Shown: piece by piece, positions 1 to 19,100 of the stretch
Numbering within the stretch: position 1 is the stretch's first letter
Layout: each line of letters begins with the position of its first letter
Assembly: GCF_002176815.1 (NCBI RefSeq)
Contig: NZ_CP021648.1
Location: 2,798,001 to 2,862,000 of the forward strand
DNA length: 64,000 bases
Source of the DNA: Acidovorax sp. T1
GTDB taxonomy: Bacteria; Pseudomonadota; Gammaproteobacteria; Burkholderiales; Burkholderiaceae_C
Direction: 5' to 3'
Notes under the pieces: model-generated
Databases searched by the model: none
Told to the model about the DNA's origin: nothing
The model's input: the letters and a program-made list of their open reading frames with translations, nothing else
Made by a program: the position numbers and the translations under genes

Positions 1-1976
1 TCCTCAGCACCGTCCATCGCGCGCTTGGCCTGATCGGCCTGGTAGGTACCCAGATCGATACGGCGGTTTTGCACGTCTTCCACGATGGACTTCCATGCCA
101 GATAGGTTCGCACGGCATCGCGCAGGCGCTGCACGGCATCACCATCGGGCGCCAGGAAAATCAGGCGGTTGCGTTTCAGCCGTGGTGCATCGCCCCGCTT
201 TTCCAGCACCTCGGTGGCAGCCAACAAGGCCAACGACTCATCTTGCTTGCGGTAACCTGCATTGGGCGGCAACACCACCAGCCGTGGCCCCAGGCCAAAC
301 TCATCGGGCACATCCGCAGACGGCACAAACACATGGATGGCGGCAAAGTGGTTGCCCTTAGTAAACACCCTGCCCACGCGGTCGCGCAGCAGCGGCATCA
401 CGTCGTCAGCGTCTTTCAGGTTGGCCTTGCGGCTTTCCATCTCGCGGCGCAGGTTGGGGCGCGTGTCAAACCAGTAGCTGTCCTTTTCGCCGTAGAGGTA
501 ATGCAGCCGATCCCGCAGGCGTTTGATGACATCCTCATACGTACCCACCGCCTGCCCTGGCTGCACGGCGCCCAGCAAAATGCCATCCACCCGAATGCCG
601 CGCACAGCCTGCGCAGCGTTAGACGGCGCACTCCCCAAGAAGATGGTTCGCGCCACGCGCCGCGCGGCTTGCAAGCTGCCAAACCGGGTGTCATGCCCGT
701 CAATGTCTGCCGCTGCTGAACGCGGGCCATCCATTTCGCGTTCAATCACCGGCTCCCAGCCGTTGGGCAGGTAATGGATGCTCTTGTTGCGCACCAGCGC
801 ATCGTCCAGGGGCAACGAACCCGGCATGATGAGCGGGTCTTTGTCACGGCTGTCCCACAGCCTGTGGATGACGATGGCCATGTACTGCAACACCCCGCGC
901 GTGCGCTGAAACTTGTCCAGCGTGGACCAGTCCTCGTACAGCCGGTCAAACACCTCGGGGTGAATGGGGTAGGCGTGCGCAATGCGCTCCTCGTAGCGCG
1001 CCTCCTGCGTCTCGCTGGGGAACTTGGTCGGGTTCTGGCGGTACAGCTCGCCAAAAGCCCGCGCCGTGGCGTTCACCTGCGCTGGGTCGCCCACGGTGTC
1101 AAACAGCCGCCTGCGCACAATCTCGAAGGCCTCTTCCGCTGCCACCGGCTTCCAGACCGATTCGACGCGGCCAAAATATTTTTCCAGCACATCCAGCGCG
1201 CGCTGGCCCTGCGTGCCTGCCGCCTCGGTTTCTGACTGCGGCAGCGATGCCAGCAAGATGGCGTTGGGCACGCTCTTCATCGCCTCGGTCAGCGCCTGAA
1301 TGAAGGTGATGTTGCTGTCAAACGTGCCGCCTGGGTAGCTCTTGCCGGGCTCCAACTGGCGCACATAGGCAACCAGTTCGTCCAGCAGCACCACGCAAGG
1401 GGCCGCGCGTTGCAACAGCGTCGTCAGTACGTCTTTACCTGGGGATGTGCCCGCCTGATCGGCGTCGGCCAGCAGCGCATAGCCCTCGGCCCCCAGCAAC
1501 TGCACAGCCAAATCGCCCCACAGCGTGTTCACCGTGGTGCCCGCATGCGAACGGGGCAGACTGGGCGAGAACTTGATGCCATCAATCACCGCCACGCGCG
1601 CCTGCGGCAAAGAGGTCACGCCTGCGGCATCCAGAATCGGCGGGATACCCGCCAGCTTCTCTGTGGGGCACTGACGGCTGGCCAGGTGGTACACCGCCAG
1701 CAGCGTATGGGTCTTACCGCCACCAAAGGCCGTTTGCAGCTGGATGACCGGGTCACCGCCCCGCCCCGACAAACGCTCGGCCACACTTTGCAGCAACAGG
1801 CGCATGCCTTCGGTGATGAAGGTGCGGGCAAAGAACTTCTCGGCGTCCTGGTACTCAGGCTCTGCCGTGCCTGCGTGCACCTGCGAGATGTCAGCCGCGA
1901 ATTCGCTTTGCTTGAAAGTGCCTTCCAGCACGTCCTTGTGGGGGTGGGCGACTTCGCGCCAAGGTTTGATGGTCAT
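1..1976 (-). CDS. DUF499-family ATP-binding protein (3' end beyond window)
   Basis: The reading frame is open from an ATG at 1976 to the left edge (658 codons), so the C-terminus is missing. The N-terminus begins [13 protein letters not shown], and a P-loop [10 protein letters not shown] lies at about residues 83-92; both are typical of the large DUF499 ATPases. Near the left edge the frame reads [10 protein letters not shown], also characteristic of the family. Family knowledge: DUF499 proteins are about 900-1100 residues long and are repeatedly found next to DUF1156 methylases in anti-phage loci; their biochemical role is poorly defined. It is the last visible gene of the defence operon, 12 bp after the small PD-(D/E)XK-like gene, on the same strand. 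Function beyond ATP binding is inferred from context. Confidence 0.85.
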
Positions 1977-1988
1977 GAGGTGCGTATT

Positions 1989-2516
1989 TCAAATGGCAAC
2001 CGTATTCCACGGCAGCATGTTGTTGTGTTGTCCCAAGCTACCAACGGCACAAACCGGTGCCGCGTCCACTTGCTTGACCGCTCTACGCAATTGGAGACCC
2101 GCATCGGCGGGCTCTACCACTTGCGGAAACAGCCGGTGGGGCCGCGCTGATTGGGCCAATTGCAGCGCCACACGAATTTGCCTAGACCCCAGCGCCTGCT
2201 GCGCCAACGCGCGCTCCTGTTGCGCCTGCGCACTGACGCGCGCAACCGCCAAACCTGCCAAGGTATCGCGTGCCTTGCCCGCCACTTCGGCAAATACGGA
2301 GCTGGGTTTTCGCCGCTTGTTCTGCCGGTAGTCTTTGAGCTCGATCAGCCACAAGGTTTGTGCAGCAGGGTCGAGCGCAATGGCATCCATGGCCTTGACG
2401 CCACCCGCAAAGTTCTGGAACTGCGTCTGGTGAAAATCGGAATCATCGTATTTCCACACCCACCACCCCGCAGGCATGGTCAGGCGCATGCCATCCACAT
2501 CTGCCGTCTGGCTCAT
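1989..2516 (-). CDS. Small PD-(D/E)XK-like protein of defence operon
   Basis: A 175-residue protein that I cannot assign to a named family. Residues about 40-60 read AMDAIALDPAAQTLWLIELK, an Asp followed by a hydrophobic strand ending in E-x-K. This is the layout of the PD-(D/E)XK nuclease core (D...ExK), so a small nuclease or nuclease-like subunit is plausible. The C-terminal half is rich in Ala, Gln and Arg and probably helical. Its ATG overlaps the stop of the upstream ATPase gene by 4 bp, implying translational coupling and a shared complex. The DUF499 gene follows after 12 bp. The nuclease assignment is inference from the motif spacing; a non-catalytic subunit is the main alternative. 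Confidence 0.7.
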   Translation of the reverse strand: MSQTADVDGMRLTMPAGWWVWKYDDSDFHQTQFQNFAGGVKAMDAIALDPAAQTLWLIELKDYRQNKRRKPSSVFAEVAGKARDTLAGLAVARVSAQAQQERALAQQALGSRQIRVALQLAQSARPHRLFPQVVEPADAGLQLRRAVKQVDAAPVCAVGSLGQHNNMLPWNTVAI

Positions 2517-3661
2517 GGGTTCGCCTCCATGTACCTGTCGCTCTGCTGCAAGCTCTCATCCAGCAGAACCAGAGGCTCGATGTCAGCGATGTCCGTGCTT
2601 TGAGTCACGGAAACCGGGCCATCTTTCTTCTGGCGACCCAATCCAAAGTACTTGTTAGGAACCAAGCGGGCATGTCCTTGCGCTGAACCCATCTGCAAAA
2701 TCTCGAACTCGCGCAGCAAGAAGAGACTGTGCGTAGCCACAACCACCTGAACCCCAGCGCTACCCAGTGCATACAAGGCCTCGGCCAGCAGCTTCAACGC
2801 GGCGGGGTTTAGGTTGGCCTCTGGCTCGTCCCAAAACAAGGTAGAGCCACGCTCCACCACGCCGTAACGCAGCAGATAAATGAGCATGGCCAGCTTGCGA
2901 TAGCCCTCTGCCATCAAAGAAATGTCCATTTGCGATCCGTCAGCGCGCTCGAAGACCAACTCTCCCTTTTCCAACTTCAAGTCTCCGCCCAATAGGCTCT
3001 GCATGCGCTGGGCTACATCCGACATCAAAGGCGGTCTGTCGCGTGGCTCCAATGTGGACATGGCGACGGCCAAATCGCGGTAGCTGATGTCCAACGGGAA
3101 GTCACGGTACTTGTCGAACAGTCCGATCAACCCCTTAAACAGGGAAACCATCTCCTTACTGGGCACCAGCACCTGCTGCGGCAAAAAAGCATTCCGTGCT
3201 GCGGCGTCTGGCACTTCGTCTGGCAGCACCGTGGCTTTGAGCAGTCCAGACTGGTCCTTTCGTTGAATCTGCACCTTCCACGGCATGGCTTCCGGCAACC
3301 CTGGTGAGGTGAACTCCGGCTCATCCGGCATGCGAACCTGCACGGTGGGAATGTGGCCATCGACCTGTGCTTGCAATACCGCGCCGCCTTTGGTGTTGCG
3401 TCGTATCAAGGCCGAAAGATCGGACACTTGAAACAAGTCAGCCAGGCGCTCCGCCAAGTACGCCTGCGCACGCTCCTTGTTCACCGCAAGCCGTTGGGCT
3501 GTGAGATCGGGCCACGCACGCGAAAACAGGTAGCCCAGTTTGAGCACATGGGTCTTGCCCGCACCGTTCTCGCCAACGATGACGTTTAAGCCTGGTGAAA
3601 ACATGAACTCCACGTCGCTGCCGAACACGGTGAAATTACTGACTTTGAGTGCTTTGAGCAT
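2513..3661 (-). CDS. AAA/ABC-type ATPase (OLD/RecF-like) of defence operon
   Basis: A 382-residue single-domain ABC-type ATPase. It starts with the RecF/SMC-like strand MLKALKVSNFTVFG. The Walker A is GENGAGKTH at about residues 31-39, an MAEGYRKLA segment takes the place of the ABC signature, the Walker B is LFWDEPEANLNP, and the switch is VVATHSLFLL near the end. These are features of the AAA_15/AAA_21 ATPases common in anti-phage systems. No TOPRIM nuclease domain is present, but the stop overlaps the start of a 175-residue PD-(D/E)XK-like gene by 4 bp, so the two probably act as an ATPase/effector pair. It lies 20 bp downstream of the DUF1156 methylase. Role inferred: ATP-dependent sensing or gating of a partner nuclease. 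Confidence 0.85.
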   Translation of the reverse strand: MLKALKVSNFTVFGSDVEFMFSPGLNVIVGENGAGKTHVLKLGYLFSRAWPDLTAQRLAVNKERAQAYLAERLADLFQVSDLSALIRRNTKGGAVLQAQVDGHIPTVQVRMPDEPEFTSPGLPEAMPWKVQIQRKDQSGLLKATVLPDEVPDAAARNAFLPQQVLVPSKEMVSLFKGLIGLFDKYRDFPLDISYRDLAVAMSTLEPRDRPPLMSDVAQRMQSLLGGDLKLEKGELVFERADGSQMDISLMAEGYRKLAMLIYLLRYGVVERGSTLFWDEPEANLNPAALKLLAEALYALGSAGVQVVVATHSLFLLREFEILQMGSAQGHARLVPNKYFGLGRQKKDGPVSVTQSTDIADIEPLVLLDESLQQSDRYMEANP

Positions 3662-3681
3662 CTTTGTTCCTTGCTGCGCGT

Positions 3682-6633
3682 TCAGGCATCAAACCCCAAC
3701 TGCTCCCCACGGGGTCCCTGCTCGCGAGATGCTTCCAGCACAGCGTGCCAGGCGGTGATCAGTTCGTTGTAGGCCCGCGCATCCTCGGCCCACTTCTTGC
3801 GCTCGCACAAGGTATAGAGGTGATAGGCCAGTTGGCGAATGGGCTCGGCCTTGTCGGGCATGGCGGCTAGCAGGGCGCCGGCTGCGGCTTCGCCCTGGGT
3901 GTTGAGAGCGCGAATCAGGTGGTGCGTGGCCTCCCACACTGGGTTGCGGGCATCCAGCTTGGGGTCCCAGCCAGCCTGGTAGTCGGCCCAGCGCAGCAGG
4001 CGCACCTTGCCTGCGCCGCTGTCGGCAATGCCTGCTTGCGCCACACCCTGCACGCTGGTGCCTTTGCCACGGGCCAACACATCAGCCTCGCCAAACGGCC
4101 CCTCGGCCCAGCCGTATTGCTCGAACCAGCTGTTACAAAACAACGTGTCAGCGTCAAAACTGCCCGCGTCGGGCGTCAGGTACTCGGTGATTTCGCGGTT
4201 GATGAGAACCAGCGCATCGTGCACGCGCATGGGCGTGCCGTCTTGGTTCAGCACGCCCGCGTACTGGCTGTAAATCGCCATGCCGGGGCCAATGGCTGCC
4301 TGCGCCAAATCGACCGGAGCAATCGGACTTTGGCCGCTGGTGCCGCCAATCATGGTTTCCAGCGCTTCGGGCAAGTGCTCGCGCAACTGGCGTTGAAACT
4401 CGCGGCGGCTGATGGTCTCGGCGCTGGAATCACGCTGTCGGCACACCAGAACGATGCTGGATGCCAGAGCATTGGTGCCCGATCCAATCATCCGATTGCC
4501 CAATTCAGTGCGCATGGGCCAAGTGCCGGTCAGCGTAAATCCTGCACGCAACACAGCCTCCAAGAATGTCTCCCAGCCAGTGCTATGGGTGCTACTGCCT
4601 TCGTCCTTGGTGTCGCTTTGCTTGAAAGCGTAGTAGATGGTGACGGGAAACGCCGAATGCGCCTGTGCTGCCAGGTTGTGCATGGCTGCGGTCATGCCAT
4701 CCAGGAAAAAAATCTCTGCCTTCTCTTTACTGCCGTGGCGATACGGCGTGGCAATCAGCTCTTCGGCCTTGGGCACGGCCAGTGTGGCATAGAGATTCGG
4801 GAAGATGGGCCGCAGACTACGGCGCAGCCAAACATAGAAAAAATCGGACAAGTCGGCATAACCGATGTTGTCGTAATACGGTGGGTCGGTGGAGATGACT
4901 TTGTTCGCGCTAACCGTTTGGGATTGAGCGTCAGATTGGATGGCCAAACCATCACCAACTGCCGGCAACTCCAAAAGCGCACGAACCATGTTGCCAAGGC
5001 TCACACCGTAATCCCCCGCTGCCTCCGCAAAAACGTTGTTTTCCGCGAAGTCCCACATCATCGGAATGGATTGCCTGCCGAACAAATTTCGTACCTGGGT
5101 TTTGCTGCTTTCCCAACGGCACAGCGCATTGCAGATATCGGTCAAACGACTCAACGCAATCCCCAGATAAACCCCAACCGCCTGGGCATATGCAGTAGCT
5201 CCGTTGCCCCCAGCATCCAGCCCTCGTCCATCATCGGGAATGCCTGTGGCCAGGGCGTCGGCGCGGATACGAGTGATGGCTTCGGGCACAAGATCGGAAA
5301 ATGTGTTCAGCGCCATCAATTGGCGGGGCGTGAACAGGTCGCCATAGGTTGTCAAGCCGTAGGCTGGCGTCCAAAAGTTGCGCGGGTCATCGGGCAAAGT
5401 GGTTTCAGGCTTCCACCCCCTCTGTGCCTGCTGAGCAGCGGATTCATGTTCTGGTGTGGGTGCGAGATATACGCGGTTACGTGCACCCTCAGCCACGATC
5501 GCCATAAGCTTGATGCCAATGCGACCGGCAGTTCCTTCGGCCTTGATGTAAGCGGGTTCAATCGGCGTGTTTGACATGAGGCAGCGAAAATTTGCGCCGC
5601 GCCCCAGCTTGGTGCCGTCTTGTGCGCTCTCTGGTGGCAGCCCCGTACGCACCTCAAAGCGGTAGCGGTCGCCTTCCATGACCGGATGCACATAAGCCTC
5701 CTTACCCGCTTTGCTGCTCAAAATAAAGCTGCTGGCCAAGGGCACATCCACATGGCTGTACGCCGGGTTGGGGCTTTTCACGGTGCGCGCCCACAGCCAG
5801 GCAATCACAGTGAGCTCTTGCCCCGGCTGCAAACTGGCGAGGCCACTGTTCTTCAAGTCTTTTTGGCCGTCAGCGCTTATCTCACAAGCGTTAGCAGCTA
5901 TCAATTCAGGAGTAATGCGTATCGTTGGATACAGGTGACCGATGCGCTGTTGGGCCTGCTCCCGCATCCATGCGCCATAGCGTCGCACGTCTTCGGCCAA
6001 GCCACGGGCACCACTCCAATCCTCAAAGGCGTTGCGCGTGCCCTTCTTGGTGCCACGCTCGGACTCAATCTCCGGCCCCACCGGGGCACGGCCCGCGAAC
6101 TTCGGCGGTATCTCGATCATGGCCTTGTTGATGGTCACGGCCACGGGGTTCAGGTCGCTGGCGTAGCTTTCAAGCCCCAGGCGCTGCGCTTCGAGCGGCA
6201 GCGCACCGCCACCAGCAAAGGGGTCGTGAAAGGCTGGCAGCACTTCGGGGTCAAAGCCGGGCTTGCCAGGGTTGAGTGCACAGGTTTCGCGCCAGCTCTT
6301 GGCAATGGCGGCGCGGGCACGGCCCAGCACTTCTTCGTTGTTGGTGTTTTCCCAAAGCACCAGCTCGCGCATGATCTGGAACAGCTCTTCGCGCTCGGCA
6401 TCGGCCTGGGCCTTGGTTTTGCCAGCGTAGTAGCCGCGCTCGCCACCGGGGTCGTTCACCATCTGCGCAAAGATGACGGCCCGCGCTGCGGCTAGTGGGC
6501 GGCGCGCCCACCACAGGTGCAGCGTGCTCGGGTGACCGTGGCGAATGGACTTTTCGCGGGCGCTGGCCACGTTGATGTCGTCCAGCGGCAGGGCGACTTC
6601 GATGAGTTTTTTGGGGGAGCGGATGGAGGACAT
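3682..6633 (-). CDS. DUF1156 adenine-specific DNA methyltransferase
   Basis: A 983-residue DNA methylase. The N-terminus carries the DUF1156 block ([18 protein letters not shown], then [16 protein letters not shown]). The SAM-binding motif [14 protein letters not shown] is at about residues 136-149 and the catalytic motif DPPYYDN at about 586. DPPY marks an amino (N6-adenine or N4-cytosine) methylase. Family knowledge: such enzymes modify the host genome in DISARM-like and DUF499-type defence loci so that partner proteins attack only unmodified DNA. It lies 8 bp after the HNH gene and 20 bp before the AAA ATPase on the same strand. Residues about 243-258 are encoded by a copy of the dispersed AGCGCTTA repeat, in frame and without disrupting the catalytic motifs. 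Confidence 0.92.
5860..5905. repeat. Dispersed AGCGCTTA repeat, copy inside the DUF1156 gene
   Basis: The stretch matches the window-wide repeat consensus TTGGCC(TCT)AGCGCTTAT, spacer, AAGCGCTAGCAGCTATCAA. It lies in frame in the methylase gene, where the coding strand yields about 16 residues ([16 protein letters not shown]). Its presence shows that the methylase, or its ancestor, has been resident in a genome carrying this repeat family. Confidence 0.7.
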
Positions 6634-6641
6634 GTACAGAT

Positions 6642-7382
6642 TTAAACCAATGCAGGCGCGTGTTGGGCCAAAGTTTGTTCAGCCATAGCGCCATAAAACT
6701 GACGGGTTAGGCTGAAAAACCGGTTGAGCTTGCCGTTGGTGGGAAGCAGGTCTATCTGGGCGAGGTGGAGCACACTCCAACCATGATCGGCATGTTCATC
6801 AAACAAGCGTTGAAGTTCTTGCGCCCACTGGCGACGGCGGGTTAACAAGAACGGGCTGTTGAGGTTGAGCAAACGAATGGTGTAGTCGGCCTTGGCTTTG
6901 TCCTGCTCAGACAGGTCTTCGCGCGGAACCACGCGCCCATCGGTGGGCAAATAGGCAAAGTAGCGGTGGCAGTCGGGTTGGTGGCACGAGACAAACAAGG
7001 CAAGGTCTACGCTGTCACGTTTGCCAGCAGCATGGCCACCAAACACGGCATCAGGCGCTGCCGGGTCGGGCTTTTTCAGTTGCTGCAAGCCGGTTTCACT
7101 GTCCAAGGCGCTGGCAGCGAGATTACTGTAATCAAAGGTGCGCGCCGGGTTCTGGCTTTTGTTTTCGATGTGCTCGATGTGATAGCCCAAACCTTCTTCA
7201 TCAGGCCTGAACTCGCTGTAACAGCACAGTTGATACTGCTCATGCAGCAGGCGCTCCATCACGTCCTGTTTGTGGCCAAACGAGCCCCAGCGGCTGGTGG
7301 CCTGACCAGGCGTTTGAGGTGGGTTGCCGTGTGATTGATTGAGGTGGTAGCCACCCGTGCCTTGCTTAGCGATGCTTCTCAT
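6642..7382 (-). CDS. ptuB: Septu-like HNH endonuclease (PtuB family, TIGR02646-like)
   Basis: A 246-residue protein. Cys53-Cys54, then the HIEHIENKS block at residues 68-76 and TFDYSNL at 82-88, form the HNH-type layout of the TIGR02646/PtuB family. A second Cys/His cluster (CHQPDCH) follows at about residue 130 and may bind zinc. Family knowledge: PtuB is the nuclease partner of the PtuA ATPase in the two-gene Septu anti-phage system and in some retron systems. Its ATG overlaps the stop of the upstream ATPase gene by 4 bp, as in bona fide ptuAB pairs. The usual second Cys of a CxxC is Ser here (CCYSE), which should be checked against family variation. It is 8 bp upstream of the methylase gene, so it is transcribed with the rest of the operon. 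Confidence 0.8.
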
Positions 7383-8797
7383 TGCTTACTCAATCCGGCA
7401 AGAGCCTCCTGACGCTGGATACTGCGTCGCAACTGCTGCAAACGAGCGTTTTCTGGCCCTAGCGTCTGAGTCAATTGCTGCAAGAGGCGCTGCGCCTCGG
7501 CACCACTCCAATGCCCCTGATCGACCAGCTCCGTCAGACGGTCGATGGTTTGCTTCTCTTCTATGGGAGGCTGTGGATCTACCAACATCACGCTGTGCAT
7601 GACATCGCCGCTGGGCTGGCCATAGGTGGAAGCCAAAGGCATTTCAGCGGTGCTGCCGCTAAGGACGCGGATGTTTTCGCGCCGGATGGTGCTGAGCACT
7701 TGTGGGCTGTGGGTGGTGACGATGAATTGGGTCAATGGGAAGGTCCGCATCAAGTCTTGCAAGACCCGCTGCTGCCATGACGGATGGAGGTGCAAGTCGA
7801 TTTCGTCCACCAGCATGATGGCTGGTGCGCTCATGCGCAAGGACTGCTGGAACGGCTCTGCCGAGACCACGCCAAGCGCGGCCAATTGGTCTATGGCCTG
7901 GTGAATAACCTGAACCGCATAGTCTTCATCGTCGTATTCCAGATGTGGGTTCGCGATCGCCAGGCGACGCGCGAAGTCCATGGCCAAGGCCAACATGCTT
8001 TGATAGCCTTGGCTGAGTTGTTCCACCAACATGGGCGCACCATCACTCTCGCGGGTCAGCATGAATTTGTGCTTGCTGTTGAAGTGAGGGTTGCGATATT
8101 GCCCCAGCAGCCCGACCACAGCGGCACGTACTGCCTCCAAAGAGCTGAATGGCATGAAGTTATCGTTGACCGCACCCTTGTTTTCGCGCAGCTCGGAGGA
8201 CTCTTCAAGGTCAAACCATTCCAGCATTTCGCGAAAGTCGCTGGCGGGGTCCAGGCAGTCGTAGAGCGCGGCTGTGGGATGTTCGTAGTTCAGCTTAGCC
8301 TCACGCAAACGCTCGGGCACTTTGATACTGCCTCGGCTAGCCCCATAGTAGGCAAAGGTAGGGGTCAAGAGTGGGTGCGTCGTCTTATAGCTGGCATAAA
8401 TGGCGCTCAGCCGATCCTTTAATTGGGTTTCGCCCCACTTCTGTGGGGGCTCCACACCCTTTGCGTTACCAGACGGTTTCCAGTAGTCCCAGCGCAACTC
8501 GTCATAGGTTTCAACCATGACCTGCGCGAAATCAGCTTTGGCCCATTGAGTTTTCCCACCTCGTCCAGCGTACCCTTCAATTCGAAAATCAGCGTCTTTG
8601 AAGCCGCGACCACTCAGACGCTGGTTGGCAGAAGAAAGATGGGTCAGCACGGGCGTCAGCGCAGTTGCGACGCCATCCAACAGCGCCGTCTTGCCGGCCC
8701 CGTTGTTGCCCACGATGACAGTGAGTTGCGGGTGCAGGTCCAGCGTCAGGGATTCAAAGCAGCGGAAATTTTTCAGCGTGACGGTTTTCAATCGCAT
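7379..8797 (-). CDS. ptuA: Septu-like ATPase (PtuA family)
   Basis: A 472-residue ABC-type ATPase. It opens with the RecF-like strand MRLKTVTLKNFRCFESL, followed by Walker A GNNGAGKT at residues 30-37. Walker B AIMLVDEIDLHLHPSWQQ lies at about residues 330-345, and the switch FIVTTHSPQVLSTI follows. The LHLHPSWQ block is typical of PtuA and related AAA_21 proteins. Family knowledge: PtuA assembles with the HNH protein PtuB, and ATP binding restrains nuclease activity. The overlap with ptuB, 4 bp, supports the pairing. It begins 33 bp after the helicase stop. A generic AAA_21 ATPase is the alternative name, but the HNH partner makes Septu-like the best call. Confidence 0.82.
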   Translation of the reverse strand: MRLKTVTLKNFRCFESLTLDLHPQLTVIVGNNGAGKTALLDGVATALTPVLTHLSSANQRLSGRGFKDADFRIEGYAGRGGKTQWAKADFAQVMVETYDELRWDYWKPSGNAKGVEPPQKWGETQLKDRLSAIYASYKTTHPLLTPTFAYYGASRGSIKVPERLREAKLNYEHPTAALYDCLDPASDFREMLEWFDLEESSELRENKGAVNDNFMPFSSLEAVRAAVVGLLGQYRNPHFNSKHKFMLTRESDGAPMLVEQLSQGYQSMLALAMDFARRLAIANPHLEYDDEDYAVQVIHQAIDQLAALGVVSAEPFQQSLRMSAPAIMLVDEIDLHLHPSWQQRVLQDLMRTFPLTQFIVTTHSPQVLSTIRRENIRVLSGSTAEMPLASTYGQPSGDVMHSVMLVDPQPPIEEKQTIDRLTELVDQGHWSGAEAQRLLQQLTQTLGPENARLQQLRRSIQRQEALAGLSKQ

Positions 8798-8830
8798 GGC
8801 GCATGCCCTCTGGATTTGTGGCGGCCTTGT

Positions 8831-11800
8831 CTAACCATGGAACACCTTGGGCGCCAAGGCTCTGTTCAGCAGCAATCCTAAGTCCAGATTTTTGCTGGCC
8901 TCGGCCCAGTCAGGTTCCTTGGTGAAGGGCATGGAAATGTAGTTCACCGATTCGGCACTGTCGCCGTCCACCACCACCACAGCCAACACGAACTTGTCCT
9001 TCTGGTTCAACCCATGGCGGATTTCGTTGCTGGTGACGGTGATGGTGTCCTGCCCCTTGGCGCGGCCTTTGACTTCAATGTGGTGCTCCAACGCCAGCCC
9101 CTCGGGCTGCTCGACGTAGGCGGTGATGTCCCAGCCGCATTTTTCGGCAGATACGTCTTTGGTGCGGTGGCCCAGCGCGTGTTCGGCGTCCAACACGGCT
9201 TGCATGGCAATGCGCTCGATGCGGGCACGGGCTGCTGCGTCCACACTGAAATCGGGCACACCGCTGCGCTGGGCCAACAACCCTGCGGGGATGACGAGCG
9301 CCCCGCCGATCACGTTGGGTGTGCCAGACGCCACGTTGCGCATGGCTTGGAGTTCGGCTGTGCGCTGTTTGAGGCGTGCACTCAACTCTTCGGCACGGCG
9401 GCGGGCGTTCTCGGGTTGCAGGCGGGGTTGCTTGCCTGCGCGCACGTCCATGTCCAGCCGGATGGCACGGTCTGACCAGTATTGGATTTCTTTGACCAGG
9501 CGCTCGCGCACGGCGGCCAGTTGCTTGTCGGCCTGGCGTTCGCGGCGGCTGGCGACTTCTTGCGTGTGCTCGGGCACCAGGTGTTCCACGGCATAGGCCA
9601 GGGCACGGGCTTCGATGTGGTGCGTCACCCAATCGGCCTGCAACACGTCGGCCACCTGGGCAGACTCGGCGGTGGTGATGGGCACCAGGTCAAGGTGGCG
9701 GGCAAACGGCGCTGGCGCGGCGTTGCCGTCCGCCGTCATTTCCACAAACTGCAATCGGCGGGAAACGTCGCGCGGGGTGCTGCCGTTGGGTGCGGCGGTT
9801 TCGCGCACGCTGTGGTCCAGCATGAACAGCACGCGCGGCTCGGTGCTGTCGTCGTGCGGGTCCACCAGGATGGCGCCGCGTTTGAGCAGGCTGCGGTGGC
9901 TGGACAGCACCAGGTCGGTCACGGCGGCCATGAGGGGGTGGCCTGGGTGCACCAGTTCTGCCGTGGGTTTGCCGTAGATGGTGCGGTGCTCGCGGTCGAA
10001 GCAAATGCGCTCGTACTTTTTCAGCACGGGGGTGCGGGTGTGGCCGATCACACGGTCGCGCTCCATGACATCAGGAGGAACGTGGCGCACCTCGTAGCGG
10101 CCCGCCTCGCGGTCGCGCAGCTCGCCACCCACCACCCGGAATGCCTCGCGGAAGAATGCGCTGATGAAATGCGGTTGGAGCTTGCGGGCCTCGGCCTTGT
10201 CCATCTCCTCGCGGATGGCATAGAGGTCGTCCAGGCTCATGTGGTTTTCGACCAGGGCATTGCGGGCCATCAGGTCTTTCAGGTGCTGGGTGTCCAGCGC
10301 CTGGCCGATAACCTGCTCCATGCGGGCGCGGGTTTCGGGCTTTTCGCCGTAGCGAATGGCGTCGATGAGCAGGTCTTTGAGCGAGATGTTGTCGAAAGCC
10401 TCGCCCAGCACGTTGAACACCCGCCCGCCCAAGGCCTCGCGCTCCACGGCCAGCTTTTCAAGCAGGCAGTTGAACACCTCGCCCTCACGGGTCTGGGCCG
10501 CCACCAGATTCCACAGGTGGCACACCTCGCGCTGGCCAATGCGGTGGATGCGGCCAAAGCGCTGCTCCATGCGGTTGGGGTTCCAGGGCAGGTCGTAATT
10601 GACCATGAGGTTGGCGTTTTGCAGGTTGACGCCCTCGCCCGCTGCGTCGGTGGCCAGCAGCACCAGCACGTCGGGATCGTTGCGGAATGCCTCTTGCACC
10701 TTGCGCCGGTCATCGCGGTTGATGCCGCCGTGGATGGTGACCACAGCCTGCTCACTGCCCAGCGTGTCGCGGATGCGCAGCAGCAGGTAGTTGAGCGTGT
10801 CGCGGTGCTCGGTGAACACGATGATTTTGCGCCGGCGGCCATCGGCGGTGCGCATTTCGGGGTCGCCCTGCAGCAGGCGCGAAAACTCTTCCCACTTGCG
10901 GTCGCTGCGCGATTGCACGACGGATGCAGCGGCACCTTCCAGCTCCCGCAGGATCAGGATTTCGGCTTGCAGCTCAGGAATGGTCTCGGCGGCAGTGGCC
11001 TGGTCCACCACTTGGTCGGCCACTGCTTCGTATTCCTCGGCGCTGAGTTCGTCGGCAGCGTCATCAAGGTCTTCGGGCAAGTCCAGCTGTCGCTTGACGA
11101 CGTATTCACCCAAGTTCTCGCGCAGCACGTCAGCGCGGGCTTTGAGTTGCAGCTCGTCTAGGCGCGCTTCGAGCTTTTTGCGCCGGCGTGACAGCGATGT
11201 GTAGATGGCCTGCGGGCTGGATGCCAAGCGGCGCTGCAACTGGGTCAGGGCAAAACCCACGGTGCCCTTGCGTTTGCCGTCCAGCCGGTCCGCGCGGTCC
11301 ATTTCGTTGCGCACGTAGTCGGTGACCTGGTCGTACAGCAGCACCTCGGCATCTGACAGGGTGTAGTTGACCGTGTACGCACAACGCTCTGGGAACAGGG
11401 GCTTGCCGTCAAAGCGCAGCAGCTCTTCCTTGACCATGCGGCGCATCATGTCGGTGATATCCACCTTGTGGGCACCCTCGCGGAACTTGCCATAGAAGCG
11501 GTCACCGTCCAGCAGCGACATGAACAGCTGAAAGTCTTCTTCCTTGCCGTTGTGGGGCGTGGCCGTCATCAGCAAATAGTGGCGCGTGAGACCGCCCAAG
11601 AACTTGCCCAGCTTGAATCGGCCTGTCTCGTTGACCTTGTTGCCGAAGTAGTTGGCCGACATCTTGTGGGCCTCGTCCACCACGATCAGGTCCCACTCGG
11701 TCTGGGCCAAGAGCTGCTGGTATTCCTCGCTGCGCGAAAGTTGGTCGAGGCGGGCAATCAGGCGGTCTTGTTCGGCAAAGTAGTTGCGGCTGTGGCACTG

Positions 11801-12364
11801 CTCCTGCTTTTCGCGGCTGAACAGCTCGAAGTCCAGTCCGAATTTCTCGCGCAGTTCGTCTTGCCACTGCTCCGTCAGGGAACCAGGAGAGACGATGAGC
11901 ACGCGCCGGGCGTCGGCACGCAGGGTCATTTCTCTGATCAGCAGGCCCGCCATCACGGTCTTGCCTGCTCCGGGGTCGTCGGCCAGCACAAAGCGCAGCG
12001 GCTGGCGCGGGAGCATGGATTCGTAAACGGCGGAAATCTGGTGCGGCAGGGGCTCCACATTGGATGTGTGCACCGCCATCAAGGGGTCAAACAGGTGGGC
12101 CAGGCTGATGCGATAGGCCTCCAATGCCAGCTTGAAGGCAGCGGGCTCAGCATCGAAAGCCCATGCCTTGCCTGCCACGGCCAGGGACAAGCGATGCTCG
12201 TCGTTGCGGAAGATGGTCTGCTCATCAAGCTTGCCTTGGGCATTGCGGTAGGCCACAAGGCGGGCACTGGGGCCTATCTCTTCGACGTTGACAACCTTGA
12301 CGACCTCATCAGGGACCAGCCCGGTGATTTGCGCGTCCTTAGCGATTTCTTCAAGTTTGAGCAT
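8831..12364 (-). CDS. SNF2/DrmD-like helicase with C-terminal DUF3883-like domain
   Basis: A large superfamily 2 translocase of 1177 residues from the ATG at 12364; an in-frame GTG at 12445 would add 27 residues, but the ATG gives the expected family N-terminus ([20 protein letters not shown]). Motif I is DDPGAGKT (about residues 129-136), motif II VVDEAHK (about 225), motif [17 protein letters not shown]. The C-terminal helicase lobe has [14 protein letters not shown] and [14 protein letters not shown]. The last ~150 residues hold [14 protein letters not shown], the E-V-K-G core of DUF3883, a PD-(D/E)XK-like fold. Family knowledge: helicases of this type (DrmD) occur in class 1 DISARM beside an adenine methylase. 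It is the first gene of the operon; the promoter should lie between 12365 and 12535. Confidence 0.9.
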
Positions 12365-12756
12365 GCGCGCCTGAGTGCGTTGAACGGTGGATACATCAGG
12401 CACTGACTCCTTGGCAGGGACGAGCAAGGCGCAAACCCAGTGCACTCCCCCAAGCGCCTGATCGGCGGGTCAGTCTAGCAGGCGAAATGCAGCATTCAAG
12501 CGTGTCGCGATCTTCTCACCCAGCGGGATTTCAATTCACGACGGAGGCAGTTCATCAATGTCAGTCAAACTGGCCATCTTGCCGCTAGCCACCACAGGGC
12601 GCACGGCTCGGGCCAGTTTTTGGAGGTTGTCGCGCGTGAAAATGAAGCACATATATCCACCCAAAAATGGGCGATGGAGGTCTTCATTTTGCTACATTCT
12701 TGCTACGCAAAAGCCGTAATTCTTTGCGGTTCATGGCAATACAAGAAAGCTGAGCA
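12365..12756. other. Intergenic region between defence operon and mutS
   Basis: About 390 bp between two divergent genes (helicase leftwards, mutS rightwards), so it must carry promoters for both. It contains one small possible ORF (12536-12652, minus). Near 12690-12710 the heptamer TTGCTAC occurs twice, 13 bp apart, close to where a mutS promoter would lie. I see no tRNA, att-like duplication or transposase remnant. Confidence 0.5.
12536..12652 (-). CDS. Possible small protein (38 aa), unrecognised
   Basis: A short frame with ATG at 12652 and TGA at 12536-12538, preceded by GGGTGG about 5 bp upstream, a fair ribosome-binding site. The peptide starts MCFIFTRDNLQKLARAV and ends ASLTDIDELPPS. 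It points the same way as the defence operon, about 170 bp upstream of the helicase. It may be a small real gene, a remnant of a larger one, or chance. I do not recognise a family. Confidence 0.25.
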   Translation of the reverse strand: MCFIFTRDNLQKLARAVRPVVASGKMASLTDIDELPPS

Positions 12757-15426
12757 GTGGTAAAAAATAACGAAAATTCAACAACTTACGACCAAAAGCA
12801 AGTTGTCGAAAAAGACTACTCAGACCACACCCCTATGATGCAGCAGTACCTGGCCCTCAAGGCCGGGTACCCCGAAACGCTCCTGTTCTACCGCATGGGC
12901 GATTTTTACGAGTTGTTCTGGCAAGACGCTGAAAAGGCGGCGCGCCTGCTCGACATCACGCTCACGCAGCGCGGGCAGTCGGGCGGCCAGCCGGTGGTGA
13001 TGGCGGGGGTGCCGTTTCATGCGCTGGAGAATTACCTGGCGCGCCTGATCAAGATGGGCGAGTCGGTGGCCATTGCCGAGCAGGTGGGCGAGGTGGGCGC
13101 GGCCAAGGGCCCGGTGGAGCGCAAGGTGGTGCGCGTGGTCACGCCCGGCACGCTGACCGATACCGAGCTGCTGTCTGACAAGTCCGAGTCGCTGCTGCTG
13201 GCCGTGCACCAGGCGCCGCGCGCGCGCTGTGGCCTGGCGTGGCTCAGCGTGACGCAGGGCCGCGTGTTCCTGGCCGAATGCGCGCACGACGAACTGGGCG
13301 CCTGGCTGGCGCGCGTGGCCCCCAGCGAGCTGATCTACAGCGCCGGCGTGACCGACCGCTTCGAGCAACAGTTGCAAGTGCTGCGCCAAAGCGGCGCCTT
13401 CACCTGCCCCCTGAGCCCCCGGCCCGACTGGCAATTTGACAGCGCCTTGGGCGCGCGCAAGCTGCTCGAACACCTGGGCGCCGCCAGCCTGCAGGCCTGG
13501 GGCGCACAAGACATGGGCGAGGCCCATGCCGCCGCCGCCGCGCTGCTGCAATACGCCGAGCACACCCAGGGCCGCCAGCTCACCCATGTGCACAGCGTGC
13601 AGGTGCAGCGCGGTGATGACCTGATCGACCTGCCCGCCAGCACGCGCCGCAACCTTGAACTCGTCAAAACCCTGCGCGGCGACGATGCGCCCACGCTCTT
13701 TTCGCTGCTCGACACCTGCATGACCGGCATGGGCAGCCGCCTGCTGAAAACCTGGCTGCTCGAACCCCGGCGCGACCGCACCGAGGCGCGCCGGCGCCTG
13801 TCTGCCACCACCGCCCTGCGCGGGGCGGGCGGCGCGGGCGGTGGCTCGGGCCCCTGGGCCACCTTGCGGGCGGAACTGAAAGGCGTGAGCGATGTGGAGC
13901 GCATCACCGCCCGCGTCGCGCTGCGCCAGGTGCGCCCGCGCGAGTTGGTGGGCTTGGGCAAGACGCTACAAAAATCAGAGCTACTAGCGCTTACTGCACA
14001 AGCGCCAGAGCCCTATTTGGCCCAAATTTTCAGCCACTTGCAGCCGCCCCCAGAATGCACGGCACTGCTGCAGCGTGCCATTGCCGAAGAGCCCGCCGCC
14101 CTGGTGCGCGACGGCGGCGTGATCGCCAGCGGCTTCGATGCCGAACTGGACGAGCTGCGCGCCATCCAGACGAACTGCGATGCCTTTTTGCTCGACCTGG
14201 AAACGCGCGAGAAGGCGCGCACCGGCATTCCGAATTTGCGCGTGCAGTTCAACAAAGTGCACGGCTTTTATATTGAAGTGACCGGCAGCCACCTCGACAA
14301 GGTGCCCGAAGATTACCGCCGCCGCCAGACGCTGAAAAACGCCGAGCGCTTCATCACGCCCGAGCTGAAAACCTTTGAAGACAAGGCCCTGTCTGCCAAC
14401 GAGCGCGCCCTGGCGCGCGAAAAATGGCTGTACGAGCAAGTGCTTGACCAGCTTCAGCCCCACATCCCCCAGCTCACCCGGCTGGCGCAGGCCCTTGCCA
14501 CGTTGGATGTGCTGTGCGCGCTGGCCGAACGCTCGCTCACGCTGAACTGGTGCGCGCCGCAGTTCGTGCCCGAGCCCTGCATCGAGATCGAAGGCGGCCG
14601 CCACCCCGTGGTCGAAGCGCGCCTGGCTGAAACATCGAGCGGCGCCTTCATCGCCAACCACACGCGGCTGAACGCCAACACGCGCATGCAGGTCATCACC
14701 GGCCCCAACATGGGCGGTAAATCGACCTACATGCGGCAGGTGGCGCTGATCGTGCTGCTGGCCAGCATGGGCAGCCATGTGCCCGCCGCCAGCTGCCGCC
14801 TGGGGCCGATTGACGCCATCCACACCCGCATTGGCGCCGCCGACGACCTGGCCAACGCGCAATCGACCTTCATGCTGGAGATGGTGGAAGCCGCGCAGAT
14901 ATTGCACGCCGCCACGCCCCACAGCCTGGTGCTGATGGACGAAATCGGCCGCGGCACCAGCACGTTTGACGGCCTGGCCCTGGCCAGCGGCATTGCCACG
15001 CACCTGCACGACAAAACCCGTGCATTCACGCTGTTTGCCACGCATTACTTCGAGCTGACCGAACTGCCCGCCAAGGCGCGCCACGCCGTCAACATGCATG
15101 TGGCCGCCGCCGAGGCGGGCACCGACATCGTGTTTCTGCACGAACTGCAACCCGGCCCCGCCAGCCGCAGCTACGGCATCCAGGTGGCCAAACTGGCCGG
15201 CGTGCCCGCCCCGGTGCTGCACCACGCGCGCCATGCGCTGGCGGCACTCGAAGAACGCGCCGGCGAAGGTGAATTGCAGGTGGACCTGTTCGCCACGCCC
15301 GAAATGCCCGAGAGCGCAGGCGCCAGCCCGGTCGAGGCGGCGCTGGCCGCCATCCACCCCGACGCTTTAAGCCCGCGCGAGGCGCTGGATGCGCTGTACC
15401 AGCTCAAGAAGCTGGCGGGGCATTGA
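12757..15426 (+). CDS. mutS: DNA mismatch repair protein MutS
   Basis: An 889-residue MutS, close to the usual 850-880. It starts at a GTG; an internal ATG at 12835 lies in the conserved [16 protein letters not shown] block and would be too short. The mismatch-binding Phe-x-Glu is in GDFYELF. The ATPase domain has [12 protein letters not shown] (Walker A), [14 protein letters not shown] (Walker B) and [11 protein letters not shown]. It binds base mismatches and recruits MutL in the cytoplasm. Residues about 403-425 in the core/lever domain are encoded by an in-frame copy of the dispersed AGCGCTTA repeat ([18 protein letters not shown]). A Gly-rich stretch near residue 355 is also unusual. It sits alone on its strand between the defence operon and a ccdAB pair. 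A dam-type partner or mutL is not in the window. Confidence 0.97.
13965..14030. repeat. Dispersed AGCGCTTA repeat inside mutS
   Basis: The sequence GCTACAAAAATCAGAGCTAC, then TAGCGCTTA, spacer, AAGCGCCAGAGCC and TTGGCCCAAATTTT, is the inverse orientation of the window-wide repeat. It is in frame with mutS and keeps the frame open. The encoded residues lie in a variable part of the core domain. Confidence 0.75.
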
Positions 15427-15493: not shown

Positions 15494-15778
15494 ATGCTCA
15501 AGGAAGTCGGCGCCAGCGGCCAGATATCGCTGGGCAAGAAATACGCCGGGCAGTTGTTTGACGTGCAAACGGCACCCGACGGCACCATCACGCTGATGCC
15601 GGTCAAGGTGGTGCCCGCCACCCTCGCCGCACAGGAAGAGCCCGCCCGCTATGCCGCAGCGGCCCACGAGTGGTCCTCACAGCACGCCACCGAAATCGAC
15701 GAATACAACGCCTGGGCCGAGCAGCGCGAACCCTACTCGCAGCGTGTGCGTCGCTGGCGTGCAGAACAACAAAAATGA
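15494..15778 (+). CDS. ccdA: AbrB-like/CcdA-like antitoxin
   Basis: A 94-residue protein. The N-terminal 40 residues (VGASGQISLGKKYAGQLFDV then DGTITLMPVKVV) look like an AbrB/SpoVT swapped-hairpin DNA-binding domain. The C-terminal third (ATEIDEYNAWAEQREPYSQR then VRRW) resembles the toxin-binding tail of CcdA antitoxins, which runs I-x-x-Y-N-x-x-x-E. The CcdB-like toxin gene starts 3 bp after its stop, giving a classic antitoxin-first TA operon. Canonical CcdA proteins use a ribbon-helix-helix N-terminus, so this looks like a domain swap. The antitoxin role is inferred from the neighbour and the tail; I am confident it is part of a TA pair, less so of the exact family name. Confidence 0.75.
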   Translation: MLKEVGASGQISLGKKYAGQLFDVQTAPDGTITLMPVKVVPATLAAQEEPARYAAAAHEWSSQHATEIDEYNAWAEQREPYSQRVRRWRAEQQK

Positions 15779-15781
15779 GCC

Positions 15782-16096
15782 ATGGCGCGCCTCGACATTT
15801 ACGACAACCCCATCGAAGAAGACCGCCACGCGTTCCCCTTTGTCATGGACATCCAGAGCGACCTGCTCTACCGCTTTGCCGAACGGGTTTGCGTTCCGCT
15901 GGCGGTGCCGGGTGCCTTTCCTGGCATGACTGAACGCTTCAACCCCGCCATTGCAGTGAACGATCAAATCGCCCATCTGCACCCCCTTGGCATTGCCGTT
16001 TTCCTGCGCAACGAGTTATCCCAACCCCGTACCACCGGAAAGCCCCAAATGCTGGAAATTGAAACCGCACTGGACATGCTTCTGCGCGGCTACTGA
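15782..16096 (+). CDS. ccdB: CcdB-family toxin
   Basis: A 104-residue protein with CcdB hallmarks: N-terminal ARLDIYDNP, the central block FVMDIQSDLLYRFAERVCVP, and a C-terminal helix ending EIETALDMLLRGY. Known members (F plasmid, vibrio and enterobacterial chromosomes) poison the GyrA subunit of DNA gyrase and are neutralised by CcdA. The length matches the usual 100-105. It lies 3 bp after the antitoxin and 28 bp before an MmeI-like restriction-modification gene. The module may stabilise the neighbouring restriction-modification gene or the whole island; that is inference. The final residue is Tyr rather than the Ile of F-plasmid CcdB. Confidence 0.85.
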   Translation: MARLDIYDNPIEEDRHAFPFVMDIQSDLLYRFAERVCVPLAVPGAFPGMTERFNPAIAVNDQIAHLHPLGIAVFLRNELSQPRTTGKPQMLEIETALDMLLRGY

Positions 16097-16124
16097 AGCG
16101 CTCCCCCTTCCCAACACCCCGCCC

Positions 16125-19100
16125 ATGACCCCCCAAGAATTCATCGCCAAATGGGGCGCGCCCGGTGGCGTGCCCGGCCCCGCCTACGCCCTCAACGAAG
16201 AACAAGGCGCGCAAAGCCATTTTCTGGACCTGTGCGAACTGCTCGGCGTGCCCAAACCCGGCAGTGCCGAGGGCTACCGGTTTGAAGAAAAAAGCAGCGT
16301 CATCGGCGGCAAGACGGGCTATGCCGACGTCTTCATGCGCGGCGTTTTTGCGTGGGAAAACAAGGCGCCGGGCAAAAACCTCGACACCGCGCTCAAGCAG
16401 CTGCTCACCTACAGCCTGGCGCTGTCCAACCCACCCATTCTGGTGGTGTCTGACCGGCTCAGCATTCGCATCCACACCCAGTTCACCGGCCACCCCAGTG
16501 CCACGCACGAGGTGCGCATTGCCGAAATGGACCAACCGGCCAACCTGGCCCTGCTGCGCCGCATCTGGCTGGCGCCCGACAGCTTCAAGCCCCGGCAGAC
16601 CAACCGCGACATCACCGAAGCCGCCGCCCAAAGCTTTGCCGCCCTGGCCGAAGGCCTGCGCCAGCGCGGCGCCACGGCGGATGAAGACGCCGCCCGCCAG
16701 CAACAGCGTGCCAACCAGGTGGCGCACTTTCTCACGCAGTGCCTGTTCTGCTTTTTTGCCGAAGACGTGGGCCTGCTGCCCGGCCGCATGTTCGAGCGGT
16801 TGCTCAACAACCAGCAAGCCACGCCCGAGCGGCTGACCCAGGGCCTCACGCAGCTTTTCACCACCATGCAAAGCGGCGGCCTGTATGGCGTGGACGACAT
16901 TCCGTGGTTCAACGGCGGCCTGTTTCAGACCATCGCCGTGCCGCCCCTCTCCGCGCCCGACCTGGCCGAGCTGCGCCGGGCCGCCGACCTGAACTGGAGC
17001 GCCATCGACGTCTCCATCTTCGGCACCTTGTTCGAGCGCGGCCTGGACCCCGCCAAGCGCAGCCAGCTGGGCGCGCACTACACCGACCCGGCCACCATCG
17101 AGCGGCTGATCGGCCCCGTCATCCGCCGCCCATTGCTACAAAAATGGGAGCTATTAGCGCAACAGATACAAGGGCTAGCGGCCAAAATCACCAAAAAAGG
17201 CGACAGACACTACCGCGCAGCGCACGCTCTGTTCATCACCTGGCTGGATGACCTGAAAAACTACCGCGCCCTCGACCCGGCCTGCGGCAGCGGCAACTTT
17301 CTGTACCTCGCGCTCAAGTGCCTGAAAGACGTGGAACACCACAGCCACCTGCAGGCCGCAGAGCTGGGCCTGGACCGCGAGGCCGACCTGGTGACCGGCC
17401 CGCACAACGTGCTGGGCATCGAGCTGAACGAATACGCCGCCGAACTGGCCCGCGTAACCGTGTGGATTGGCGAGCTGCAATGGCGCCTGGCGCACGGCTA
17501 CGAGTTCAAGACCAACCCCGTGCTCGACACACTGCAGCACATCGAATGCCGCGATGCGCTGCTGGACTGGGGCACAGCGCAGGCAGCGCCAAAACAAGAC
17601 GCAGCGCAGACACCAGCGCCCGCCCCAGGCGCAGCGCAGGTTTCGGGGTCGGATCACGATTTTGCGCAGCAAAACTCGTGCTCTGACCCCGAAACCGGAA
17701 CCCCGCCCCATCCCGGATCACCCGGCGCGGCCGCCACACCCACAGAGGCAACCTGGCCCACCGCCGACGTGGTCATCGGCAACCCGCCGTTTCTGGGCGG
17801 CAGCAAGAAGCGTGGCGAATTAGGGGATCGCTACGTCCAAGCGCTGGACGCCGTTTACGCATCCGCCGTTCCCGGCGCTGCCGACCTGGTGTGCTACTGG
17901 TTTGAGAAAGCGCGGGCACAAATCGCGGCCGGGGCTTTGCAACGCGCCGGGCTGGTCACTACCAACTCGATTCGCGGCGGCGCCAACCGCAAGGTGCTCG
18001 ATGCAATCTGCGCGCAAACCCGCATCTTCGAGGCCTGGAGCGATGAGCCGTGGGTAAACGAAGGGGCAGCGGTACGCGTGTCGCTGGTGTGTTTTGGATT
18101 TCAAAAGGCTGACACCCAAATATTGAATGGCGCGCCTGTTGCAGAGATCTTTGCAGATCTTTCTGCATCCAAAGAAGCAGGTTCAGCGCTCAACCTCAAT
18201 TTGGCACGTCCAATACAAGCCAACGGCAGGGGGAGCTTCCAAGGCTCCCAGAAAATAGGAGCATTCGACATCAGCGGTGATTTAGCTCGAAGTTGGCTTG
18301 CATTTCCGAACCCAAATCAACGGCCCAATAGTGACGTCTTGAAACCCAGCTGGAATGGACTTGATCTCACCAGAAGAAATCGTGATGGTTGGATCATTGA
18401 CTTTGGTGTTGACATGACCGAATCAGATGCAGCTTTATACGAACTGCCCTTCCAATACATAGAGAGTCACGTCAAACCAGAGCGTTTAAGCAACGCCAGG
18501 GAAACCTACAAGAAAAATTGGTGGAAACATGGAGAGCCAAGAATCGCAATGCGCTTGGCGCTAAAAAAACTCGATCGTTACTTTGCTGTCACGGCACATC
18601 AAAAGCATTTTTTCTTTACCTGGATTGATAAATCCGTTTTGCCGGATAAGGCGTTAATCGTCATCGCCCGCGCCGACGACACCACCTTCGGCATCCTCCA
18701 CAGCCGCTTCCACGAACTCTGGGCGCTGCGCATGGGCACCTCGCTGGAAGACCGGCCGCGCTACACCCCCACCACCTGCTTCGAAACCTTCCCCTTCCCC
18801 GCAGGCCTCACACCCTTGGATACCGCGCACCAGCGCACCGAAACGGTGGACGGCGGCGCACTGATTCCGGCTGACCTCTCGAATGCCTTGGTTGAAGGAG
18901 ATTCAAAGCCAAATCAGCCTCTAGCGCCCGTCCAGCAAGCGCAAGCAGCTATCAAAACCATACCAACACGCCAAGCGGCCACGGCCATCGCCCAGGCCGC
19001 GCAGCGCCTGAACACCCTGCGCCAGGCCTGGCTGAACCCGCCCGAGTGGACGGACAGCGTGCCCGAGGTGGTGCCGCTGGGCCTGAGCGCATCGCCCTAC

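Follow-up and report, generated by a model that had tools for sequence, protein, structure and literature searches.

A predicted phage defence operon of the Hma type occupies the left end of the stretch of Acidovorax sp. T1 DNA analyzed here (64,000 nucleotides, hereafter the window; its position 1 is position 2,798,001 of NZ_CP021648.1, and feature coordinates are window positions unless G000:C1 is given). Two ATPase–nuclease pairs, Septu and HEC-02, are lodged between the three core genes, and the ATPase gene of the Septu pair, ptuA, has the make-up of a natural chimera. The seven open reading frames (ORFs), all on the minus strand and within the left 12.4 kb of the window, are listed below in operon order, together with the two blocks on which the argument turns:

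8831..12445, minus strand: hmaA, Swi2/Snf2 helicase with a C-terminal NOV_C domain, 1204 amino acids (aa) as called (PADLOC HmaA, 2058 bits; Pfam SNF2, Helicase_C, NOV_C)
7379..8797, minus strand: ptuA, Septu ATPase, 472 aa, in the hmaA–hmaB junction, head/tail chimera by sequence (PADLOC PtuA, 653 bits; Pfam AAA)
7655..7825, minus strand: conserved Walker B to H-loop block of ptuA, residues 325–381, where the head and tail histories switch
6634..7820, minus strand: 1,187-bp block shared at 90.7% identity with a free-standing Septu (G138:C174), running from the end of the conserved block through the ptuA tail and ptuB, plus the 8-bp gap before hmaB
6642..7382, minus strand: ptuB, Septu HNH nuclease, 246 aa (PADLOC PtuB, 415 bits; solved PtuB 8ee7, 267 bits)
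3682..6633, minus strand: hmaB, DUF1156 amino-methyltransferase with a DPPY motif, 983 aa (PADLOC HmaB, 1751 bits; Pfam DUF1156)
2513..3661, minus strand: HEC-02 ABC-type ATPase, 382 aa, in the hmaB–hmaC junction (PADLOC HEC-02, 222 bits; Pfam AAA_21/AAA_15)
1989..2516, minus strand: HEC-02 PD-(D/E)XK-like nuclease, 175 aa (PADLOC HEC-02, 148 bits)
1..1976, minus strand: hmaC, DUF499 ATPase, extending left past the window (PADLOC HmaC, 1532 bits for the full protein; Pfam DUF499)

In operon order, the intergenic spacings are +33, −4, +8, +20, −4 and +12 bp. The ORFs and their spacing thus bear out the initial annotation, made from the sequence of the window, as to seven genes in this order on one strand, with gaps of at most about 33 bp and two 4-bp overlaps, and PADLOC and Pfam agree with it that a helicase, a Septu pair, a DUF1156 methylase, a second ATPase/nuclease pair and a DUF499 protein make up a defence operon. 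(No Pfam family matched ptuB or the HEC-02 nuclease.) The window edge cuts hmaC, which is complete in the genome (G000:C1:2797139-2799976, 945 aa). Since the HmaA profile match begins at residue 28, a methionine, and residues 1–60 are poorly conserved, translation of hmaA probably starts at the ATG at 12364 rather than at the GTG at 12445. The motifs expected of the families are in place: the Walker A, Walker B and H-loop residues of PtuA are invariant, and so is DPPYYDN in the eight HmaB sequences compared. The NOV_C domain, which is nuclease-like, matches the helicase at 71 bits over residues 1076–1168. A C-terminal PD-(D/E)XK-type domain is fused to the helicase in 79% of type-1 BREX-related (BR) taxa (PMC12839542).

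Hma has been defined as a three-gene operon that is frequently accompanied by Septu (PMC8565338), and it is counted as a type-1 BR, restriction–modification-like system (PMC12839542), DUF499-centred. Here HmaA, HmaB and HmaC are recognized by profile, in the same order and on one strand, and their adjacency holds in that only the two embedded pairs intervene. What differs is that both junctions are filled and that HmaC, at 945 aa, lacks the extra part of the forms of about 1,110 aa. Septu within Hma has been reported (PMC8565338) and is cited as the example of embedding (PMC12255303), while HEC itself stands for Hma-embedded candidate (PMC12988326, PMC10855318). Because Hma, Septu in Hma and the embedding of HECs are all published, the seven-gene composition, which the initial annotation took to be undescribed, is of a described kind, namely Hma with embedded modules.

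The same annotation had likened the helicase and methylase to class 1 DISARM. A related Snf2 helicase (386 bits to the best DrmD model) and a DNA methylase are indeed common to both, but the HmaA profile, at 2058 bits, fits far better than DrmD, and the methylase matches HmaB, not DrmMI. (At 263 bits the helicase also matches a DrmA model, as it does many other helicase models.) The absence of drmA, drmB and drmC noted in the visible part was confirmed for the seven genes. Their presence beyond the left edge would have pointed to an ordinary DISARM variant, but the frames scanned over 13 kb to the left of the window include no match to them; with HmaA fitting far better than DrmD, such a variant is rejected. 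So is BREX (type 3: PglZ with BrxHII, PglXI and BrxC), since PglZ matched neither the seven genes nor the flanking genes that were scanned.

The Septu pair is of type I, with a PtuA ABC ATPase followed by a PtuB HNH nuclease at a 4-bp overlap; the tail and PtuB are of the same class as the solved 8ee4/8ee7, and H71 and N87 of PtuB have the same spacing as H75 and N91 in the PtuB examined in PMC13096335. It departs from type I in lying inside Hma and in joining the head of one PtuA group to the tail of another. The block at 6634–7820, which spans the ptuA tail, the whole of ptuB (94% identical in aa) and the 8-bp gap that precedes hmaB, beyond which the identity ends, has its counterpart in a Septu on a 26.6-kb contig of genome G138, which belongs to a different genus, with no Hma genes in the 12 kb read around it. 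Near-identity over the block was found in only one of 398 other family genomes, the next best reaching 67%. The head of PtuA is 59% identical to those of L156 (free-standing) and L024 (embedded) and 30% to that of L157, while the tail is 89% identical to L157, 30% to L156 and 34% to L024. The head of L157 is in turn 66–67% identical to those of the embedded copies L045, L022 and L116, where the tails are 28–32% identical. Head and tail trees conflict; in approximately unbiased (AU) tests the head data reject the tail group (p 0.0005) and the tail data reject the head group (p 2e-6). The best PADLOC PtuA models of the two proteins differ as well (PDLC00311 here, PDLC00310 for L157), whereas both PtuBs have PDLC00357 as their best model. 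Against solved PtuA 8ee4, the tail scores 146 bits and the head 43 bits, and PtuB 8ee7 scores 267 bits against the PtuB found here, compared with at most 37 bits for other solved PtuBs. These comparisons show the embedded ptuA, at the level of sequence, to be a natural chimera: the head resembles one PtuA group, and the last ~110 residues and ptuB match a free-standing Septu. (L157 itself, at L157:2652-4882, is a free-standing Septu whose ptuB is nearly that of the window and whose PtuA head has Hma-embedded copies as its nearest relatives among those found here.)

Is this joint peculiar to one gene? Among 252 PtuA sequences, comprising the hits of database searches with the whole PtuA (best 120 of 3,173) and with the tail alone (best 120 of 561) together with 36 loci, and with the conserved block excluded, heads were at least 80% identical in 641 pairs, 253 of which had tails at most 35% identical. 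Conversely, 385 of the 959 pairs with tails at least 80% identical had heads at most 35% identical; head and tail were both at least 80% identical in 237 pairs. Single linkage at 50% gives 10 head types for the tail type found here and 5 tail types for its head type. A strict rule applied to an earlier set of 156 sequences was passed by 570 pairs, and in 32 of 38 disjoint discordant pairs of that set the switch point lies at residues 325–337 or 368–381, the edges of the Walker B/H-loop block; the remaining six switch at 284–285 or 407–427. On contigs of at least 50 kb, named isolates included, 36 sequences (out of 37 eligible, L051 being missed, and with the proteins labelled P assigned the longest contig of their cluster) still gave 69 discordant pairs, with one head type joined to five tail types and one tail type to four head types. 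PtuB follows the tail: across 34 loci its similarity tracks that of the tail (r 0.88; partial, given the head, 0.87, p 0.0005) and not that of the head (partial −0.07, p 0.96). No description of PtuA head/tail exchange was found in the literature consulted, which included the available text of PMC11555353, PMC13096335 and PMC11980606; an earlier account may exist in PMC12318543 or in the bioRxiv paper on embedding. The chimeric ptuA looks new within an otherwise known architecture.

How constant are the embedded pairs? Hma loci were drawn from 80 named genome contigs (the best 80 of at least 555 confirmed relatives), four viral contigs and 14 members of the family of the present genome, this locus included. 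Both junctions were readable in 68 of these 98 loci, the other 30 being dropped for want of a core gene, for being cut or for lying on another strand. The A–B–C gene order is kept throughout the 68. Counting a junction as occupied at 300 bp or more, both were filled in 32 loci, only A–B in 16, only B–C in 5 and neither in 15; most unoccupied junctions measure −4 to +45 bp (16 of 20 for A–B, 24 of 31 for B–C). PtuA was present in 17 of the 68, each time in the A–B junction, and the HEC-02 ATPase in 12, each time in B–C. On the HmaB tree of 66 loci (L031 and L089 are left out, their hmaB being in two pieces), presence changed at least 14 times for PtuA and at least 11 times for HEC-02, counts in which gain and loss are indistinguishable. 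Septu and HEC-02 are therefore sporadic modules, present in only 17 and 12 of the loci, that keep their junction. They occur together in five loci: the present one, G170, Acidithiobacillus ferrivorans, Desulfobacter latus and a Lentisphaerae metagenome-assembled genome. This is not above chance (p 0.14), and a co-selected Septu–HEC-02 pair is unsupported. Over all clusters of at least three members, junction purity was 0.94 (permutation p 0.0002). Among ten representatives of the other fillers, PADLOC recognized HEC-01 (two genes), HEC-05, HEC-06, HEC-08, HEC-09, PDC-M61 (two genes) and PDC-S02; the representative of cluster c3 had no PADLOC match. (In L031 of genome G073, at 8611–11498, hmaB lies in two overlapping frames, a broken core gene, while hmaA and hmaC are long ORFs.)

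Both pairs also exist outside Hma. In 299 family genomes there were 23 PtuA matches in 20 genomes, 4 in Hma and 19 not in the Hma loci found there, and 15 HEC-02 matches in 14 genomes, 4 in Hma and 11 not. The neighbourhoods of 18 of the 19 free-standing PtuA copies (a short frame in G012 was left out) and of all 11 HEC-02 copies were fetched, each of 4 to 18 kb, and in none of these 29 did hmaB or hmaC give a match above 30 bits. A distant helicase (226 bits to HmaA) lies in the HEC-02 neighbourhood L175. An Hma-specific PtuA lineage was not seen either: embedded and free groups mix, with at least 8 changes on the head tree and at least 7 on the tail tree.

What, then, is the operon for? It is a complete Hma core with Septu in the A–B and HEC-02 in the B–C junction, and it likely encodes three separate, co-transcribed phage defences rather than one machine. 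Judging by the protein families, HmaB would amino-methylate the cell's own DNA as a self-mark, and the HmaC ATPase and the HmaA helicase–nuclease would destroy unmarked DNA. The embedded pairs would be back-up sensors with nucleases of their own: PtuA is predicted to free the PtuB nuclease on sensing infection, and the HEC-02 ATPase to gate its PD-(D/E)XK nuclease. The initial annotation had instead read the seven proteins as one functional system; the two ATPase/effector pairs would then take over the functions of drmABC. The single strand, the short gaps and overlaps and the recurrence of double occupancy in five different genomes would suit such an integrated machine, but it is very unlikely. 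The pairs are present sporadically, both junctions are empty in 15 of the 68 loci, presence has changed repeatedly on the HmaB tree, both pairs are found free-standing, and their co-occurrence is at chance level. The reading as one system is accordingly unsupported: with Septu in 17 and HEC-02 in 12 of the 68 comparable loci, the pairs show the sporadic presence that the initial annotation itself had named as evidence against it. It is also possible, though rather unlikely, that the pairs guard the Hma core and are triggered when a phage inhibitor blocks Hma, the junctions reflecting a need for matched dosage or for contact with hmaB or hmaC. The strictness of the Septu and HEC-02 junctions in the face of many presence changes would fit this, as would the role of backup effectors proposed for the OLD-ABC/nuclease pairs of BREX and BR loci (PMC12839542); however, most copies in the family sample are free-standing, and the embedded PtuA groups mix with the free ones.

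Within these separate defences, PtuA probably contains a natural recombination joint, at which the last ~110 residues and ptuB are swapped between unrelated sensor heads, even across the border between free-standing and Hma-embedded copies. The tail would be the part on which PtuB docks, and for that reason the ptuA tail and ptuB would travel together as one effector cassette; recombination would run through the conserved Walker B/H-loop block, and the exchange would renew the nuclease and leave the operon undisturbed. A crossover in so strongly conserved a block is what might be expected of an assembly or alignment artefact, since short-read metagenome assemblies can join wrong copies there and many of the sequences come from short contigs. 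This explanation is almost certainly wrong, however: the ptuA described here lies on a 4.1-Mb contig, the discordant pairs persist when only contigs of 50 kb or more are considered (36 sequences), and the tails are paired with matching PtuB genes.

Several points weigh against these conclusions, nonetheless. The division into separate defences comes from sequence analysis, and activity is predicted. A scan for promoters and terminators found nothing above the chance level of shuffled sequence, so that co-transcription rests on gene spacing alone. The constancy of the junctions might reflect joint action of the modules and the core. Clusters c3, c9, c10 and c15 occur in both junctions, and the junction rule is thus not general; PtuA and HEC-02 show no significant association with each other. 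As for the exchange, the PtuA pairs are not independent and their sample is centred on the protein found here, many of the sequences are from contigs of metagenomes, the identities were already known when the AU groups were named, and PtuB in the 34-locus comparison was picked mechanically as the next frame after ptuA, one of them (L159) being unlike PtuB. The pattern for the HEC-02 ATPase is weaker and two-sided (partial 0.57 for the tail, p 0.001; 0.27 for the head, p 0.003). A HEC-02 cassette like that of Septu is weakly supported at most, and the cassette claim is therefore made for Septu only.

The operon is a good example of a known architecture, and the chimeric ptuA and the exchange of heads and tails are its apparently new and testable part. 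A bacterial immune ATPase seems here to consist of two freely recombining parts, a head and an effector cassette, and the chimera likely shows how bacteria swap nucleases while keeping the predicted sensor, which would give them a route to a changed nuclease. Head/tail exchange also provides a rule for predicting which PtuB accompanies which PtuA, and a reason to classify Septu separately by tail and PtuB and by head, rather than by similarity over the whole protein; tail and PtuB could then reveal which target a new Septu has. If true, cassette exchange would account for the differing targets of related PtuAB systems, which act on tRNA-Tyr, on nicked DNA or on a target other than tRNA, and for the way in which a defence operon can renew its weapon while its gene order stays the same.

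The operon is flanked by mutS, on the opposite strand, and by a GGDEF/EAL gene 203 bp beyond hmaC, which is followed to the left by a gene for a hybrid histidine kinase. Here the two flanking genes are 13.8 kb apart (window about −1066 to 12757, G000:C1:2796935-2810757). The protein matches of GGDEF/EAL and mutS are separated by only 155–289 bp in five of 12 same-genus genomes (G403, G262, G406, G402, G085), and the DNA alignments to these relatives end at about the same points, between window −1,104 and −1,228 on the GGDEF/EAL side and at 12,824 on the mutS side. Other sequence lies between the two genes in G407 (~24 kb), G401 (~6.5 kb) and perhaps G404 (~2 kb, a partial match); in G399 they are far apart, and G400, G405 and G408 were unreadable at the site. 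Since the flanking genes adjoin in five relatives and enclose other sequence in G407 and G401, the operon is judged to fill a site that some relatives leave empty and in which others carry different insertions, and the place beside mutS looks like an insertion hotspot. HmaB is found in 14 of 299 family genomes and in two of 13 of the same genus, the present one and G399, which has a partial frame elsewhere. The G+C content of the embedded genes is mostly lower (ptuA 56.8%, ptuB 56.0%, HEC-02 ATPase 56.9%, HEC-02 nuclease 60.2%) than that of hmaA (63.0%), of hmaC (62.4%) and of the window as a whole (64.9%), with hmaB at 60.6%. Among 72,556 plasmid records there was no near-identical copy of the operon, the best place covering 5% of it, while 61 records encode an HmaB relative, with identities up to 65%; HmaB relatives also occur on four IMG/VR contigs. 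On the far side of mutS lies a type IIG restriction–methylation enzyme (15990–19331; PADLOC, 882 bits), directly preceded by a toxin–antitoxin-like pair of small genes (15494–16096), the second of which matches CcdB at 61 bits. The window gave no Rfam match at gathering scores, and no tRNA was found in it.

The HEC-02 pair resembles its kind in combining an ABC ATPase with a small PD-(D/E)XK-like protein in the hmaB–hmaC junction, but its ATPase is distant from the others found (at most 182 bits, against 837 to itself). In the nuclease, D44, E59, K61, D62 and K81 are invariant across 10 sequences. Its structure model has a pLDDT of 87, and the top rows of the fold comparison were restriction and repair nucleases along with unrelated proteins, all at Z below 8, a range where chance arrangements occur. 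HmaB, too, has a mosaic appearance: residues 481–540 are 93% identical to L020 and 90% to L033, against a median of 48%, and the nearest relatives are L020 (with L033) for residues 421–600 and L034, L060 and L069 for residues 721–840, which suggests that the target-recognition region may have been exchanged. A second form of HmaC, of about 1,110 aa and apparently with an N-terminal extension, is present in L028, L029, L030, L076, L081 and others; published HEPN fusions of DUF499 ATPases would fit this extension.

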